From NCBI GenBank assembly GCA_963575645.1, contig OY754467.1, positions 51,617,108 through 51,681,107 on the forward strand: 64,000 bases of DNA, given 5' to 3'. Each line of letters opens with the position of its first letter. Position 1 is the first letter of the stretch. Position numbers and translations under genes: made by a program. Positions 412 through 53,490 of the stretch are shown one piece after another. Below the pieces are notes generated by a model. That model saw only the letters and a program-made list of their open reading frames with translations. It made no database searches and was not told where the DNA came from. Source of the DNA: Xanthostigma xanthostigma (taxonomy: Eukaryota > Arthropoda > Insecta > Raphidioptera > Raphidiidae).

Positions 412-540
412 ATTTCTTATTGAAGTAAAACTTCTTTACGCACGCTTGACTTACGCACGCCTGACTTACGCACGCTTGACTTACGCACGCTTGACTTGGG
501 GAGTAAGCTGGTGAATGCGTGACGAGAGCCTTACGAAAAG
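412..540 (+). repeat. partial copy of the GAAGTAAAACTTCTT-ended repeat
   Basis: It starts with GAAGTAAAACTTCTT and contains the phrase CACGCTTGACTT repeated in tandem with ACGCACGC spacers. GGGGAGTAAGCTGGT follows. The same start occurs at 5239 and 53029. This copy is cut off by other DNA after about 130 bp. The GA/CT-rich stretch after it (595-640) has no gene. Confidence 0.55.
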
Positions 541-740: not shown

Positions 741-914
741 AATTAACTCTGAGCTGGATGACTTTTCCAATACCAGTACCAATACCATTGTTTGCCTGGC
801 ATAAATAAAATCCTTCCCGATCTTCTTTAACGTTTTGCAACATTAGTGTTCCATTTCCTAACAATTTTGTGTACATCCGCTCTCGAACTTCCTCGTACTC
901 TCCCGATTTACTCC
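741..914 (-). CDS. Dscam2: Dscam2 exon, second half of Ig8
   Basis: This 174-nt exon completes Ig8 and is too short to show up as a long ORF. On the minus strand the acceptor reads TTCCAG before 914 and the donor GTAAGT follows 741. The first two bases finish a glycine codon begun in the previous exon. The peptide then reads SKSGEYEEVRERMYTKLL, followed by the NGTL sequon (a likely N-glycosylation site) and the F-strand cysteine in GFYLCQANNGIGTGIG. The Cys pairs with the cysteine of Ig8a. The exon leaves phase 1 (one base T). The next exon, expected to open Ig9, was not found in the remaining 740 bp. Match to Dscam2 Ig8 is strong. Confidence 0.9.
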
Positions 915-1239: not shown

Positions 1240-1359
1240 CTGTAGCTTTTTTCCATACAACCGTCGGCGTCGGGACGCCCTGGGCTTGACAATGAAGTGC
1301 AACGTGTCTGTTGCGTTCTACACTGACATCTGTCGGTTCGACGATCCAACGTGGAGGTA
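1240..1359 (-). CDS. Dscam2: Dscam2 exon, first half of Ig8
   Basis: This 120-nt exon has an acceptor ending CCTCTAG and begins with two bases (TA) that complete a valine codon with the G left by either Ig7 exon. The result is VPPRWIVEPTDVSVERN, then the B-strand cysteine (HVALHCQAQG) and the core tryptophan (VVWKKAT). It ends with a single G, and the following exon supplies GG, giving KKATGSKSGEYEE across the junction. The donor is GTTTGC, clearly the weakest 5' splice site of the set, with a short 325-bp intron after it. Ig8 begins the constitutive part of the ectodomain downstream of the alternative Ig7 choice. Confidence 0.9.
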
Positions 1360-2266
1360 CTAGAGGACACAAACACAAGGACAACTATTAGTTCGGCGAT
1401 CAATTCTGGAACCGTCGCAAACTATTTTATATTTTATGATAATATATTATTTTTTAATTAGTCAATTAACTGATTGATTGATTGATTTATATTATTAAAG
1501 GGGGGCTGTGTGAGAGCGTGTGATGGATACACTGACATTAATTACGACTACTAAATATCAAAACAGCCGGTTCGGTGTTTGAGAGAACGGAAGGGGGGTT
1601 TTCTACACAGTACTGGTTATATTGCTGCATGAAGCATATAAAATACTTGTGAGAGGGATAATATCCAATCAACTCCATCAATACTGCAATGATTACATAA
1701 TAAATACATAATAATATAATATATATAATATATACGTACGTACATAATAGATAGATACAATTTGCATAATAATAATAATAATCAACATTACGGCAGTCTG
1801 CAATACTGAGGCATGTTAATATGGCGTTATACGGATGGTTGTGCGCGACGACCCTAGGAGTCTTGCTGCTTCTACGCTACGCTACACATAAGGGAAAGTG
1901 CATGCCAATAATAATCAGAATAATAATAATAAAACATAAGAGGTGCAACAGTACCTTGTGAGATCAAGCCTGGGTTCCAGTCATCGATGCATTCCCAATA
2001 TATATATAAATAATAATAATAAAACTGTGCCAAAAGCGTTCGAGGATAGAGAAGAGTAATAAAGAGGTCTAAAGGCAGGTGATGTATATATTACATAATA
2101 TTAATGTAGTGGTGCGGTTAGCGGGCGGCGGCGGTGAGGGGGTATCGGTGGTGGTGGTGTCGAGGATAATAGTAAATACGGGGTATCAATTATATCATGT
2201 TGTGCCGGTCGACGGATGGTATGGATTTGACTGAATTGTGTTGTTGATGTTGCTGATGGACTTTAC
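1360..2266 (-). other. Dscam2 intron between Ig7B and Ig8
   Basis: This 907-bp intron is the common downstream partner of both Ig7 donors. Near its 5' end (about 2115-2165) the transcript carries a C-rich stretch with repeated CACC units (plus strand: GGGCGGCGGCGGTGAGGGGG and GGTGGTGGTG). The rest is AT-rich with TA and AAT runs around 1680-1790 and 1905-2030. No coding signal is convincing. The C-rich patch is a candidate binding region for a splicing regulator, by inference only. Confidence 0.5.
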
Positions 2267-2551
2267 CTTTGACCTGAAGCTTGGCCGTGTACCTGACCTC
2301 GGCGGCCGGGTTGCTCGCCACGCAAGTGTAGTCGCCGGTGTGTTGAGCGCCGAGGCTAGAAATGCTCAGGAGGCTGGAATAGGGGTCAAGGGCCGACACG
2401 TTGGCTCCCAGGCTGGCGGTAAGTGGCCGCCCGTCCTTGAGCCACGATACGGAGAGAGGCTGGTCCCCGCGACTAACGCCGCACACGGTGCGCGTGCGCA
2501 TGCCTTCGGACAGCTCGTCTTGGAAGGAAAAGGGCTCAATAATAGGAGGAA
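2267..2551 (-). CDS. Dscam2: Dscam2 alternative exon Ig7B
   Basis: A 285-nt exon encodes a whole Ig7 domain, the second of two alternatives in transcript order. The acceptor is TATTCCAG with a pyrimidine-rich tract and the donor is G|GTAAAG. It starts with TT completing valine (VPPIIEPFSFQDELSEGMR) and ends LQVK plus one G. The domain has Cys in RTVCGVSRGD, Trp in SVSWLKDG, and Cys in GDYTCVASN. One NVS sequon lies in the middle. The motif YTCVASNPAAEVRYTAKLQV is the typical Dscam2 Ig7 ending. Its phases equal those of Ig7A, so either exon, both or neither would preserve the frame. In fly Dscam2 and bee AbsCAM the two are used mutually exclusively and give homophilic specificity; that role is inferred here. 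Confidence 0.93.
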
Positions 2552-2649
2552 CTGGAATAGTATAGAGAAGAAGAAAACCCAATATGAGAGAGAGATAGAG
2601 ACAAGAGTAAAAGAAGCGCGCCGGCTATTAAAGTGGCGCGCGTGATTAC
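2552..2649 (-). other. 98-bp intron between the two alternative Ig7 exons, with GC hairpin
   Basis: The two Ig7 exons are separated by only 98 bp. In transcript orientation the Ig7A donor is followed within 10 nt by a 7-bp perfect GC stem (plus-strand arms GCGCGCC at 2616-2622 and GGCGCGC at 2635-2641, 12-nt loop). After it comes a long pyrimidine tract leading to the Ig7B acceptor. A stem so near a donor could mask it, and the short distance could hinder joining 7A to 7B. Both effects are inferences about mutual exclusion. Confidence 0.7.
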
Positions 2650-2940
2650 CGTTCACCACCAGCTGTTGGGTGTGCACAACTTCCGCAGCCTGGTTGCGCA
2701 CGGCGCAAGTGTAGTTGCCGTTGTGATCTGGTGATAAACTTTCAATCACAAGTATGCTAGTGAACTGGTCCACTTGAGTGATGGTCAGAGTGTTGTGAAC
2801 GGTCGGATCGACGGCGCGTCCGTCCTTGCGCCAGGAGATCGTCAACGGCAGATCGCCCTTCGTCACCGAACAGGTCAAGCTCGCCCGATCGCCCACGTGC
2901 AGCGTGTCCTCCGCGTAGAACGGGCTAAGCTTGGGAGGCA
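2650..2940 (-). CDS. Dscam2: Dscam2 alternative exon Ig7A
   Basis: A 291-nt exon encodes a full Ig7 domain, the first alternative met by the spliceosome. The acceptor is CACACGCAG. The first two bases TG complete valine (VPPKLSPFYAEDTLHVGDR). Core residues are Cys in SLTCSVTKGD, Trp in TISWRKDG, and Cys in GNYTCAVRN, whose NYT is a glycosylation sequon. It ends QQLVVN plus one G at the donor GTAATC. The sequence is clearly diverged from Ig7B while the frame and phase are the same, as expected for an ancient pair of alternative exons. Third-codon positions are much richer in G/C than the surrounding introns. Confidence 0.93.
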
Positions 2941-3345
2941 CTGCGTGTGCGCGCGCGACAACAACAAATACAAGAACACAACACAACGGTCATACTTGGA
3001 TGTACCAACAGCTGTCTATCATCATCATCTCTGTGTTGTCATTTAATAATTTAAATGTCAGTCAGTCGGTCGAGTGAATTGTATGTATTGTCGCACTATC
3101 ATCTATTTATCTATCTACTAATTATTTTACTAAACTGCAGTATTATACACAATAATGCGTGCAGCGGTGTGTTCGTATGGGGCTGTGCAACTGGGATCGG
3201 ACTGGGACGAGGCCAAGGCGGTGGGGATATCGAATAAAGCGCGGATGACGTGATTCAACATATTTATATATATAGACACAACAGCTGTCATCTGCAAAAT
3301 ATGCTCATCATTCTTCAGCGTAAAGATGATGCTTTATTTACGAGG

Positions 3346-3579
3346 CTAAATTATTATCCATAGATCATTGTCATTATTGCTGATGCCAACTTGGAACGAC
3401 TTAGACTTCTTGTTAACGACAACGGATAACGGCCCGATTTTTATGACGGGCGACGGGCCGTTAATGTGGGTGTTTGTTAACGCGACGGGCATGTAACCGT
3501 TGCAACAAAACTCAACGAATACCCGCACGTCGCCCCTCGGCGCAATGGCGGTCCATCCGAAGTAGTGGACCGCGTCATT
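3346..3579 (-). pseudogene. GC-rich coding-like fragment of unknown origin
   Basis: On the minus strand 77 codons stay open from just after a TGA at 3580-3582 to a TAG. The peptide includes VHYFGWTAIAPRGDVRVF and VEFCCNGYMPVALTNTH. Most third positions are G or C, unlike the AT-rich intron around it, which suggests descent from real coding sequence. There is no Ig signature, no obvious start codon at the front (a Met occurs only at 3528), and no splice partner with a matching phase could be picked out. It could be a decayed captured gene, a piece of an inserted virus or transposon, or an unrecognised exon. I do not recognise the family and assign no function. Confidence 0.35.
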
Positions 3580-3599
3580 TCATAGAAGTCTGTTGACGA

Positions 3600-5232
3600 C
3601 GACAGATGTGCGCGCGCGTTTTTACCTACCTTGTTCTGCTCATTGTGAATATGGAGTTTAAAATTGATATTGATTTTATCACAAATTATTTTACCACAAA
3701 TAAAAAAAAAGTTAAGCGGTTGTGTCTATATATTTAAAACTACTTCTCAATCATTCATACACTAAAATGTTCGGCGGCTGAAAAAAAAACATTTTTTCGC
3801 ATTGTCTGGCACGTGAAAAACTGAAAAATTAAATTATCAGCTTAGAAGCAAAACTTTTGGGTGATTTATATTAATATTGGCAAAAATTAATAGAATTTTT
3901 GTTTTTTTTAATAATTATTATGCTTCTAAACCGACTTTAAAACACATATTCATGACTAAACATTCTAGGGCTGAAAATAAAAAACAAAAACAACCGGATA
4001 TCGCATTCAATTTACACTCAAAAACTGCTGAAAAATCAAAATCAATCCACACTTTCAGTCATTCAACGCGCAATGGCTGAAAAGTTAAACTTAAGTAACA
4101 ATAAAAATAATCCCGACAAAAAATATAAGTCTGAGAAATGTAATTGTATTATTTAAACAAAACAATGCAATAAAATAATTGAAATAACATTTCATCGGTT
4201 CTATAAATGTAAGATGGAAAAAAAGGGTAAGGGCGATAATGGAACAAATTGGTTATTAGACTGGAAGGGAGAATCTGTATTATATTGTAAATCTAAAACA
4301 TAATAACGAATTACCAACACATTATAAATTATTTTTGCTTACGAATGTTTTTTCTCTCATTAAGTGCTTTCAAAATTTGTGTACAATAAAATAATTTGCA
4401 TTATTTAAAATTTCACAAATAAGCGGGTACTTGTTTTTTTTTTTGAAAAAAAAACATCCGTTCAGCAAAATGAAAAAAAATCTCATTGAAAAATATTAAT
4501 AACTTTTATCCGAAATGTTCGTATTTTTAAACATAATATAAAACAAAACTGAAGTTTTTAAAAAATAACCACAATTTAATAAAAATATTGCAGCAAAAAT
4601 TAACACTATAAATATATGTATGACACATATTTAAGAGCCTATAGATGTATTGAAAGACGTAGCCTACAATATTTAAATACAAAACAATTATTTACCTTTT
4701 TACAAAAAAATTGCCAATAACCGAAGAAAGCTCTTGAGCTTTGAATTTAAAACAAGTTATAAGCGTTATCAGGACATTAATTTGATAATGAAAAAACATA
4801 ACAAATAAAACATTATTTTTTATAATCATAATAATAAGAAAATTAATTAATTTTAATAAAAATAAAATATAACTAATACAATTTACTAAAAATACAACAT
4901 TCGCCTGTTTCAATTTTTGAGTGATATTTTTTCCTTTGAAATAAGAATTTTCTTAATGCCCTTTTAAACACGTTTGCCCAAATTTTACTAACGGAACCCA
5001 CGACCTTTGCACCACTGATCTTGCTAAATTGTCAATTAACAAGGCTTTTGACGCTGGGCTCTAAGTTGTAAAAATAATTAATTATTGTTGAATATGCACA
5101 ATATTTTTATTATTAAAACTGGATCATATGTAAATATTGCTTTTAGAAAATACATTTTTAAAAAGATCGATAGATTGTAGATTATAGACGCTCGACAGAA
5201 TTTTTAAAATGACGTTTAACGTCGAACTTAGA
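3600..5232. other. gene-free AT-rich intronic DNA
   Basis: Long A- and T-runs and short open frames rich in Lys, Asn, Ile and Phe codons. I see no conserved protein motif, no tRNA and no clear repeat boundary here. Confidence 0.6.
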
Positions 5233-5895
5233 ATTTTTGAAGTAAAACTTCTTTAGGCACGCTTGACTTGAGGAGTAAGCTGGTAAATGCCTGACGAAAT
5301 CGTTTAGGGAAGTGCATCATCGCGAACGAAATCGTTTACGGAAGTGCATCATCGCGAACGGTGCGTGATCGTTCGAGGCGAACGGTAGTTGAGAGGCAGA
5401 TATAAGTTAGTGAAGATAGTAAGAGAGAGAGAGAGAGAGAGTTACGTTGGAAGTTGAGAGGGAGATATAAGTTAGTGAGTGCGACAAAGACGGAGCATTA
5501 ATCGAAACTCTTTTTTTTGGACAACTATTTGACGTTCAAAATGAAAACAATTGTTTTTGTATCAAAAAAACATTTCATCGAATTTTGCTGCATTTTGTAA
5601 CGGGAAATAATGTAGGTTAGTTAAAATATCCTTTTAAATATATTATAAATTATGCTAATAAATATATATGCATATTTTGCCTATTAATTAATTAAAAAAA
5701 ATATTTTAAACATTTCGTCTTTGTAGATATGTGCTACAGAGTGAGGTTATATTCTGTTCGATAAACTTTGAGACGAACCGACTGCATATTAATGTTCGTT
5801 TATGAATTTAACATGAGCAAATTTGAGGTATTTACGCATTATTCTTAATAAATATATTTAAAATAATTATGGCAGGAAGAAGTTTTACTTCACTC
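5233..5895. repeat. MITE-like repeat with GAAGTAAAACTTC ends
   Basis: The left end GAAGTAAAACTTCTTTAGGC is matched in reverse near 5877-5895 (AGAAGTTTTACTTCACTCG). Between them are GA-repeats and AT-rich DNA. The family recurs at 53029-54110, where a Helitron sits inside it, and partly at 412. No coding capacity. The outer motif is itself palindromic. Confidence 0.55.
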
Positions 5896-6148
5896 GTGTG
5901 GTCTAAAGCATACTCGCTTTTCTGAAAATCTAAATGATTTCTTTCTTGTACAAGAATTGTTTATAAATTTCAATTTTTTACCAATATAAAATTATAAATA
6001 AAGAATATCATAATTATGAACTTTTTTTCATCGCCTTGATCAACATATCTTGACCAAATTTGTCTAAAATCTACGATCTACGAAATGTCCCTGCGTTATA
6101 TTGTGTACTATATTAAATCTAGTTATTCAAGTGAAGCACGTCTCATAC

Positions 6149-6421
6149 CGATAACTGAAACTTCTCCGCTTCTACGTGCGCTGTGGCCTTGTTTGTTGCG
6201 TGCCCAGCAAGTGTAGACGCCAGCGTCATTTTTCTTCTGTACGGGTCCGATCTGTAGGGTGCCGTCTGGAAGGACTTTTTGGCGCAGGTCGTCCGGCAAT
6301 TCCCGCCCGCCACGTTCCCAGTGTATCTCTTCTATCGGGTAACCGGCCACCGGACATTTCAGCGACAAGGTTTCCCCTGCCACGGCTGTGACTTTCGGAA
6401 TCAGGCGAATGTATGGCATAC
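6149..6421 (-). CDS. Dscam2: Dscam2 exon Ig6
   Basis: A single 273-nt exon encodes Ig6. Acceptor TCCTTCAG, donor G|GTATGA. GT at the start completes a glycine with the G from Ig5b, giving LNVYG-MPYIRLIPKVTAVAG over the junction. Core residues are Cys (LKCPVAGYP), Trp (EIHWERGG) and Cys (GVYTCWARNKQG). The exon ends SARRSGEVSVI plus G, which either Ig7 exon turns into the valine of VPP. The sequence is one of the most characteristic of Dscam2 in insects. Confidence 0.95.
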
Positions 6422-14882: not shown

Positions 14883-15061
14883 CAGATCCACGGGGGGGGG
14901 GGTTTCGGGTTCAAACCCCCCCTTCCAGAGAATCAAAAATCCCAAATTAAAAACTTACTGCGTGATAAAAAAAAAGTTTTTCATGTTTTTCATGAATTCT
15001 CCGCAAAAGGAGTAAAAATTTTTCAAGACCCCCCCTTGCCGTAATCCTGGATCCGCCACTG
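14883..15061. mobile_element. small hAT MITE, TSD GTTTTTCG
   Basis: Only 179 bp, starting CAGATCCACGGGGGG and ending GGATCCGCCACTG. GTTTTTCG is duplicated on both sides (14875-14882, 15062-15069). A C/G-rich interior with CCCCCCCTT flanks. No coding. Confidence 0.85.
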
Positions 15062-53003: not shown

Positions 53004-53490
53004 ATACTATTTATTTATTGAAGTTAAACTTCTTTAGGCACGCTTGACTTGGGGAGTAAGCTGGTAAATGCCTGACGAAAGCGTTTACGGAAGCGCATCA
53101 TCGGACGAGGCGAACGGTGCGTGATTATTAGAGGCGAACGGTAGTTGAAAGGGAGATATAAGTTAGTGAAGATAGTAAAAGAGAGAGTTACATTTCGTAT
53201 TTTGGAAGTTGAGAGGGAGATATAAGTTAACAATCGTTTTTGTATCAAAAATACATTTCATCGAATTTTGCTGCATTTTGTAACGGGAAATAATGTAGGT
53301 TAGTTAATAAATCCTTTTAAATGTATTATAAATTATGATAATAAATATATATGTACATATTTTGCCTATTAATTAATAAAAAATTATATTCTAAACATTT
53401 AGTCTTTGTAGATATGTGCTGCAGAGTGAGGTTATATTGTGTCGTTAAATCAGGATGTCCAATCAAAATATGGTGATAGATTAACGAATA

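Follow-up and report, generated by a model that had tools for sequence, protein, structure and literature searches.

On the minus strand of the window, by which we mean the whole 64,000-nucleotide stretch analyzed (C4:51617108-51681107 of the 623-Mb, 28-contig genome of Xanthostigma xanthostigma), lies a nerve-cell adhesion gene whose domains follow the order of Dscam: Ig3 to Ig6, Ig8, Ig9, FN, Ig10, and further FN pieces, the domain numbers and FN assignments being our own reading and the order spanning Ig3 onward. Assignment of the gene to the Dscam2 type, and its putative orthology with fly Dscam2 as against Dscam3 or Dscam4, are based on this architecture. Between Ig6 and Ig8 it carries two Ig7 exons, 7A and 7B (Table 1). 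The initial annotation had described a pair of Ig7 exons of 291 and 285 nt, both entered and left in phase 1 and lying 98 bp apart, and this description proved exact to the base.

Table 1. Exons, introns and predicted hairpin between Ig6 and Ig8, in transcript order and window coordinates
Feature	Position	Strand	Length	Remark
Ig6 exon	6421..6149	minus	273 nt	phase 1 to phase 1; upstream neighbor; Pfam run
Ig6-7A intron	6148..2941	minus	3208 nt	
Ig7A exon	2940..2650	minus	291 nt	
7A/7B spacer	2649..2552	minus	exactly 98 nt	GT-AG intron
Predicted hairpin GCGCGCC / 12-nt loop / GGCGCGC	2616..2641	minus		intron nt 9-34; branch-point-like CTTTAAT in loop
Ig7B exon	2551..2267	minus	285 nt	
7B-Ig8 intron	2266..1360	minus	907 nt	
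Ig8 exon, first half (VPPRW...)	1359..1240	minus		Pfam run
Ig8 exon, second half	914..741	minus		Pfam run

Exon 7A is preceded by an acceptor reading ...CACACGCAG ahead of TGCC and ends at the donor AACG/GTAATC, and 7B is preceded by ...CTATTCCAG ahead of TTCC and ends at AAAG/GTAAAG (slashes mark exon boundaries). The Ig6 exon ends in ...GTT ATC G/GTATGAG, with the donor GTATGAG at 6148, and the Ig8 exon begins with TA CCT CCA CGT TGG; because of this Ig6 end and the starts of 7A, 7B, and Ig8, the G/TG, G/TT, and G/TA junctions all lead to V-PP. With the boundaries of the Ig6 and Ig8 exons located and their phases matching, the earlier claim that both exons join Ig6 to Ig8 through V-PP was borne out. 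All of the junctions Ig6-7A, Ig6-7B, 7A-7B, 7A-Ig8, and 7B-Ig8 are in phase 1, and therefore transcripts with 7A alone, 7B alone, both, or neither would all stay in frame. Each Ig7 exon is open in its used frame only, stops being present in the other two frames of both. Retention of the spacer, in contrast, would break the reading frame: translation in the 7A frame would pass through all 98 nt without a stop and terminate inside 7B, shortly after 2369.

Both exons encode Ig7. Residues 2-90 of 7A align to 618-705 of 3dmk and residues 1-96 to 3-94 of 6zr7, and residues 3-94 of 7B align to 619-711 of 3dmk and residues 1-94 to 3-94 of 6zr7. The first of these structures is an eight-Ig Dscam chain, of which 7A and 7B match the seventh Ig at nearly full length, a region that we take to be Ig7 of fly Dscam1; in 6zr7 the matched part is the first Ig of the chain, presumably Ig7 of human DSCAM. 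For 7B the top row by E-value is titin 3b43, with a score that is a sum over six weaker domains. In the Pfam run, which covered Ig6, 7A, 7B, and Ig8 only, both Ig7 exons exceeded the cut-offs of Ig_3 and I-set. Since 7A and 7B are 43.2% identical with E=1.1e-17 (7B query, whole genome) and both lie above these cut-offs, their resemblance is not due to chance. Identity to 6zr7 is 50.0% for 7A and 45.7% for 7B, and because each exon is nearer to the Ig7 of 6zr7 than to the other, the duplication appears to be old; identity of each to Ig7 of two other Dscam-like genes in the same genome is 37-45%. In a tree of 32 Ig7 rows, which held no fly Dscam2 row and in which the forks are weak and several branches long, 7A and 7B were not joined.

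Searching the whole genome with 7B returned 32 matches at E <= 0.001, two of them at its own locus (7A and 7B), 26 in an array at C7:41.415-41.456M, and the rest comprising a whole Ig7 at C1:25.0556M, the two halves of one Ig7 at C13:7.627M, and a single weak match at C7:24.86M. Neither this search nor a local profile search of a 144-kb stretch found a third Ig7 at the Dscam2-type locus. The Dscam-like genes on C1 and C13 hold one Ig7 apiece in the stretches read (5.5 and 4.5 kb). In the latter gene (C13:7624501-7629000) Ig7 is split, its first half sharing one open frame with Ig6 and its second half sharing one frame with the start of Ig8. The C7 array is of the Dscam1 type and holds 26 whole-Ig7 exons of 282-294 nt (C7:41415142-41456152), separated by 25 spacers of 108 to 4413 nt; the models were constrained to the phase of 7A and 7B, and all 26 exons could be fitted with it. 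Splice sites of the array scored 3.7-13.1 (acceptors) and 0.5-6.7 (donors) with a hand-set matrix. The lengths of 7B and 7A fall inside the span of the array exons. An Ig7 array of this type is known from pancrustaceans (PMC3364881). With this large array sitting elsewhere and two Ig7 matches here, identity of our gene with Dscam1 (Dscam-hv) was rejected.

Two intact exons with matched phases and correct neighbors, together with the single Ig7 in each of two paralogs, support a Dscam2-type switch. Exon sets are classed as mutually exclusive in WebScipio-type searches by near-equal length differing in steps of three, a common phase, and homology (PMC5740500); here the lengths are 291 and 285 nt, the phase is 1-1, and identity is 43%. 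In fly Dscam2, two Ig7 exons are alternatively spliced (PMC3364881); which isoform is made depends on the cell type, and homophilic binding is isoform-specific (PMC11292952). We consider it very probable that the pair described here is used in the same exclusive way, one Ig7 exon per transcript between Ig6 and Ig8. The receptor would then exist as two isoforms that differ in their Ig7 domain and, presumably, in homophilic specificity. For the isoform switch proposed in the initial annotation, the sequence gives support: two ancient, intact Ig7 copies of matching phase stand where fly Dscam2 has its pair. The claim that splicing of 7A to 7B would need an "unusually short" intron is not upheld.

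Two ways in which exclusivity might be enforced were rejected. Frameshift leading to nonsense-mediated decay would not operate, given that 291 and 285 are both multiples of three and the frame is kept on double inclusion. Incompatibility of U2 and U12 sites is likewise untenable: the donors GTATGA, GTAATC, and GTAAAG are all unlike the U12 consensus.

Inclusion of both exons in one transcript, for a Dscam of 11 Ig domains, is very unlikely: the frame would survive it and introns near 98 nt are frequent in the genome, but there is one Ig7 place between Ig6 and Ig8 and both 7A and 7B occupy it, the ectodomain of Dscam-hv contains ten Ig domains (PMC3364881), and fly Dscam2 has two alternative isoforms (PMC11292952). 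Slimmer still is the chance that one exon is a relic out of use, which the very weak acceptor of 7A would suit but which is at odds with the full-length open frames and above-cut-off Ig domains of both exons and with GT-AG ends and phases that are intact despite divergence to 43% identity.

The length of the spacer was compared with computational intron models between Ig pieces of titin-like, C13, and Dscam-like genes, built with splice-site matrices hand-set from general knowledge. From 48 pairs examined, 46 were modeled, two were without a model, and 41 were kept at a score of at least 12. Ig pairs in one open frame or separated by more than 2,500 bases had been set aside at the outset, as had the Dscam1 Ig7 array and the Dscam2 gene. 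No fewer than 17 of the 41 models are 98 nt or shorter (68-98 nt), and the spacers of the Dscam1-type array go down to 108 nt. By these models, 98 nt is an ordinary intron length in the X. xanthostigma genome, and length alone is therefore no bar to double inclusion. The short spacer is in itself unremarkable, which corrects the earlier idea. If sterics matter, any steric bar would act through the position of the branch point and a hairpin predicted near the 5' end of the spacer.

The spacer consists of GTAATCAC, GCGCGCC, the 12-nt loop ACTTTAATAGCC, GGCGCGC, and a pyrimidine tract running up to CAG, the predicted stem being GC-only and 7 bp long. The fold of the intron alone has a free energy of -17.5 kcal/mol (z=-3.89, none of 200 shuffles as stable), and with short flanks z=-3.43 (one of 200 as stable); the stem is predicted with a probability of 0.93-1.0 across five contexts that range in length from 98 to 1001 nt. 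GC-only 7-bp stems were found in none of the 41 modeled introns of the same genome. With loops of 3-25 nt allowed, the 64-kb window has three such stems (one of them a poly-G run) and the 223,000 bases of other loci have one, the count covering the window and 24 of 44 fetched loci. A GC hairpin is, on the other hand, likelier here because the neighborhood is GC-rich: 7A and 7B have 58% and 62% GC and Ig6 has 56%, against 33% in the window, and 24 of the 26 Dscam1-type Ig7 exons have 42-54%. A further GC-only hairpin (CGGCCCG / CGGGCCG, 17-nt loop) lies at window 3430-3460 in the Ig6-7A intron, and at window 14892-14922 a poly-G run is followed by a complementary poly-C run.

Pyrimidines make up 82% of the 60 nt before the final triplet of the spacer, versus 38-70% in the 41 introns, a test that was picked after the sequence was seen. 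The AG-free zone, which reaches from the last preceding AG to the end of the spacer, measures 75 nt; this is long but not extreme, the range in the 41 introns being 5-126 nt, with three of them longer.

The two exons differ widely in the strength of their acceptors, which score -0.4 for 7A and 10.8 for 7B with the hand-set matrix; the donors score 5.1 and 7.8. At the end of the Ig6-7A intron, a GU-rich tract gives way to CGCGCGCGCACACGCAG; this 3' splice site is weak, scoring below all 26 acceptors of the Dscam1-type array. Words TGTT/TTGT before 7A number 11 versus 4.0 in shuffles, with none of 500 shuffles having as many, this test too having been picked with the sequence in view. Muscleblind is reported to regulate isoform choice of fly Dscam2, and YGCY is a Muscleblind-type motif. 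No enrichment of YGCY was found around 7A, with observed and shuffled counts of 0 and 1.2 in the 150 nt upstream, 5 and 6.3 in 7A, 2 and 2.6 in the spacer, and 3 and 8.2 in 7B; the 150 nt after 7B hold 4 versus 1.9, and 6.4% of shuffles have as many. The wide acceptor gap, the rank of the 7A acceptor, the GU-rich words, and the frequency of 68-98 nt introns in the genome are all in keeping with an explanation in which exclusivity is set by trans-acting regulators and by competition between the strong 7B and the weak 7A acceptor, without any role for hairpin or branch-point spacing. We hold the chances of this explanation to be about even, as competition would not stop 7A from joining 7B once both exons are defined, and the GU-rich test was chosen post hoc.

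An additional arrangement, which would supply such a stop, can be tentatively proposed, although we think it on balance unlikely to be correct. Exon 7B would be the default exon owing to its strong acceptor, and 7A, with a weak acceptor behind the GU-rich tract, would need activation; once 7A is defined, splicing of 7A to 7B would be blocked, so that 7A would join Ig8 only. The spacer contains three yTnAy branch-point candidates, at A+22, A+42, and A+65 nt from the 7A donor. The hairpin would shorten the path from that donor to all three, with A+22 placed in the loop and A+42 and A+65 cut to ~16 and ~39 nt (the latter from 65 by our own subtraction of the 26-nt hairpin), and the resulting distances would fall under a steric limit of ~50 nt. 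Two of the three candidates (A+22 and A+42) are under this limit even unfolded. A donor-to-branch-point limit of ~50 nt is cited for a vertebrate exclusive pair (PMC7969005), and 57 of 629 human clusters (9%) are ascribed to possible proximity of donor and branch point (PMC5740500). The candidate CTCTCAT at A+65 is 33 nt before the acceptor and has ordinary distances if the hairpin is open, so that double inclusion could still occur. This mechanism, drawn from one sequence, is the sole part of our account that goes beyond the known; among the papers listed in literature searches, no title or opening of an abstract describes a branch-point or hairpin mechanism for Dscam2, which is a weak form of absence.

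The predicted folds also involve the splice sites of 7A. In each of the five contexts, the unpaired probability of at least one base in the GT of its donor is no higher than 0.25; in the three contexts that include the acceptor, the corresponding value for its final G is no higher than 0.03. Because of this pairing, we lowered our already low confidence in the hairpin and branch-point mechanism a little further; the structure might simply repress 7A rather than bar the joining of 7A to 7B alone. In a stronger version, a built-in RNA device would make 7A-to-7B splicing physically impossible in this lineage: folding of the 98-nt intron by the GC hairpin behind the 7A donor would bring every usable branch point too near for the spliceosome, and the hairpin arms could instead pair with the CG tract at the acceptor of 7A, which would link exclusion to the choice of exon. 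This version seems to us improbable.

It is similarly improbable that RNA pairing picks the exon, either by a docking-selector arrangement as in the Dscam1 clusters or by pairing of a GCGCGC tract before 7A with GC arms after it, so that 7A is looped out or its splice sites are hidden and 7B is used. GCGCGC starts at 12 positions in the 64 kb, four of them (two overlapping) within 35 nt of 7A, the upstream tract and the 5' arm in the intron would pair with -15.5 kcal/mol, and the predicted folds leave little of either 7A splice site unpaired. Nevertheless, the local hairpin within the intron is stronger (-17.1 kcal/mol, with a probability of 0.93-1.0 in the folded contexts), and among the 25 longest of 182 inverted-repeat pairs (at least 11 nt, positions 1240-6160) none pairs across 7A/7B, and no arm of these pairs falls in the spacer or in the 300 nt preceding 7A. 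The plus strand carries three copies of a dispersed repeat, AAGTAAAACTTCTTTANGCACGCTTGACTT, with at most one mismatch, at window 423-452, 5240-5269, and 53021-53050, where none is expected by chance; the copy at 5240 sits in the Ig6-7A intron.

The Dscam2 Ig7 switch was known already, and X. xanthostigma is a further genome with such a pair. The hairpin and branch-point arrangement gives a concrete, testable hypothesis for what might prevent double inclusion in a Dscam2-type switch. In the exon 17 pair of Dscam1, steric hindrance is reportedly combined with RNA secondary structures (Yue 2013), and honeybee AbsCAM chooses between two Ig7 exons. The exon 17 pair differs from ours in coding for the transmembrane segment (PMC8042237). 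OGDH exons 4a/4b are a mutually exclusive pair with a long pyrimidine tract and with branch points closer than ~50 nt to the preceding donor, an arrangement similar to the one proposed for 7A/7B; they differ in being of vertebrates and in having mapped lariats, with no GC hairpin described in the part of the source consulted (PMC7969005); the branch points of the 7A/7B spacer, in contrast, are candidates, one of them, at A+65, conventional. The exon 9 (Ig7) array of Dscam1 (Dscam-hv) is also built of whole-Ig7 exons, which in this genome measure 282-294 nt, share the phase of 7A and 7B as imposed on the models, and have spacers of at least 108 nt between them, but the array comprises 26 exons rather than two and belongs to a separate gene on another contig. 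The closest parallel is Drosophila Dscam2, with two alternative Ig7 exons in a non-hypervariable Dscam (PMC3364881); the pair in X. xanthostigma, which is probably alternative as well, has no YGCY enrichment near 7A.
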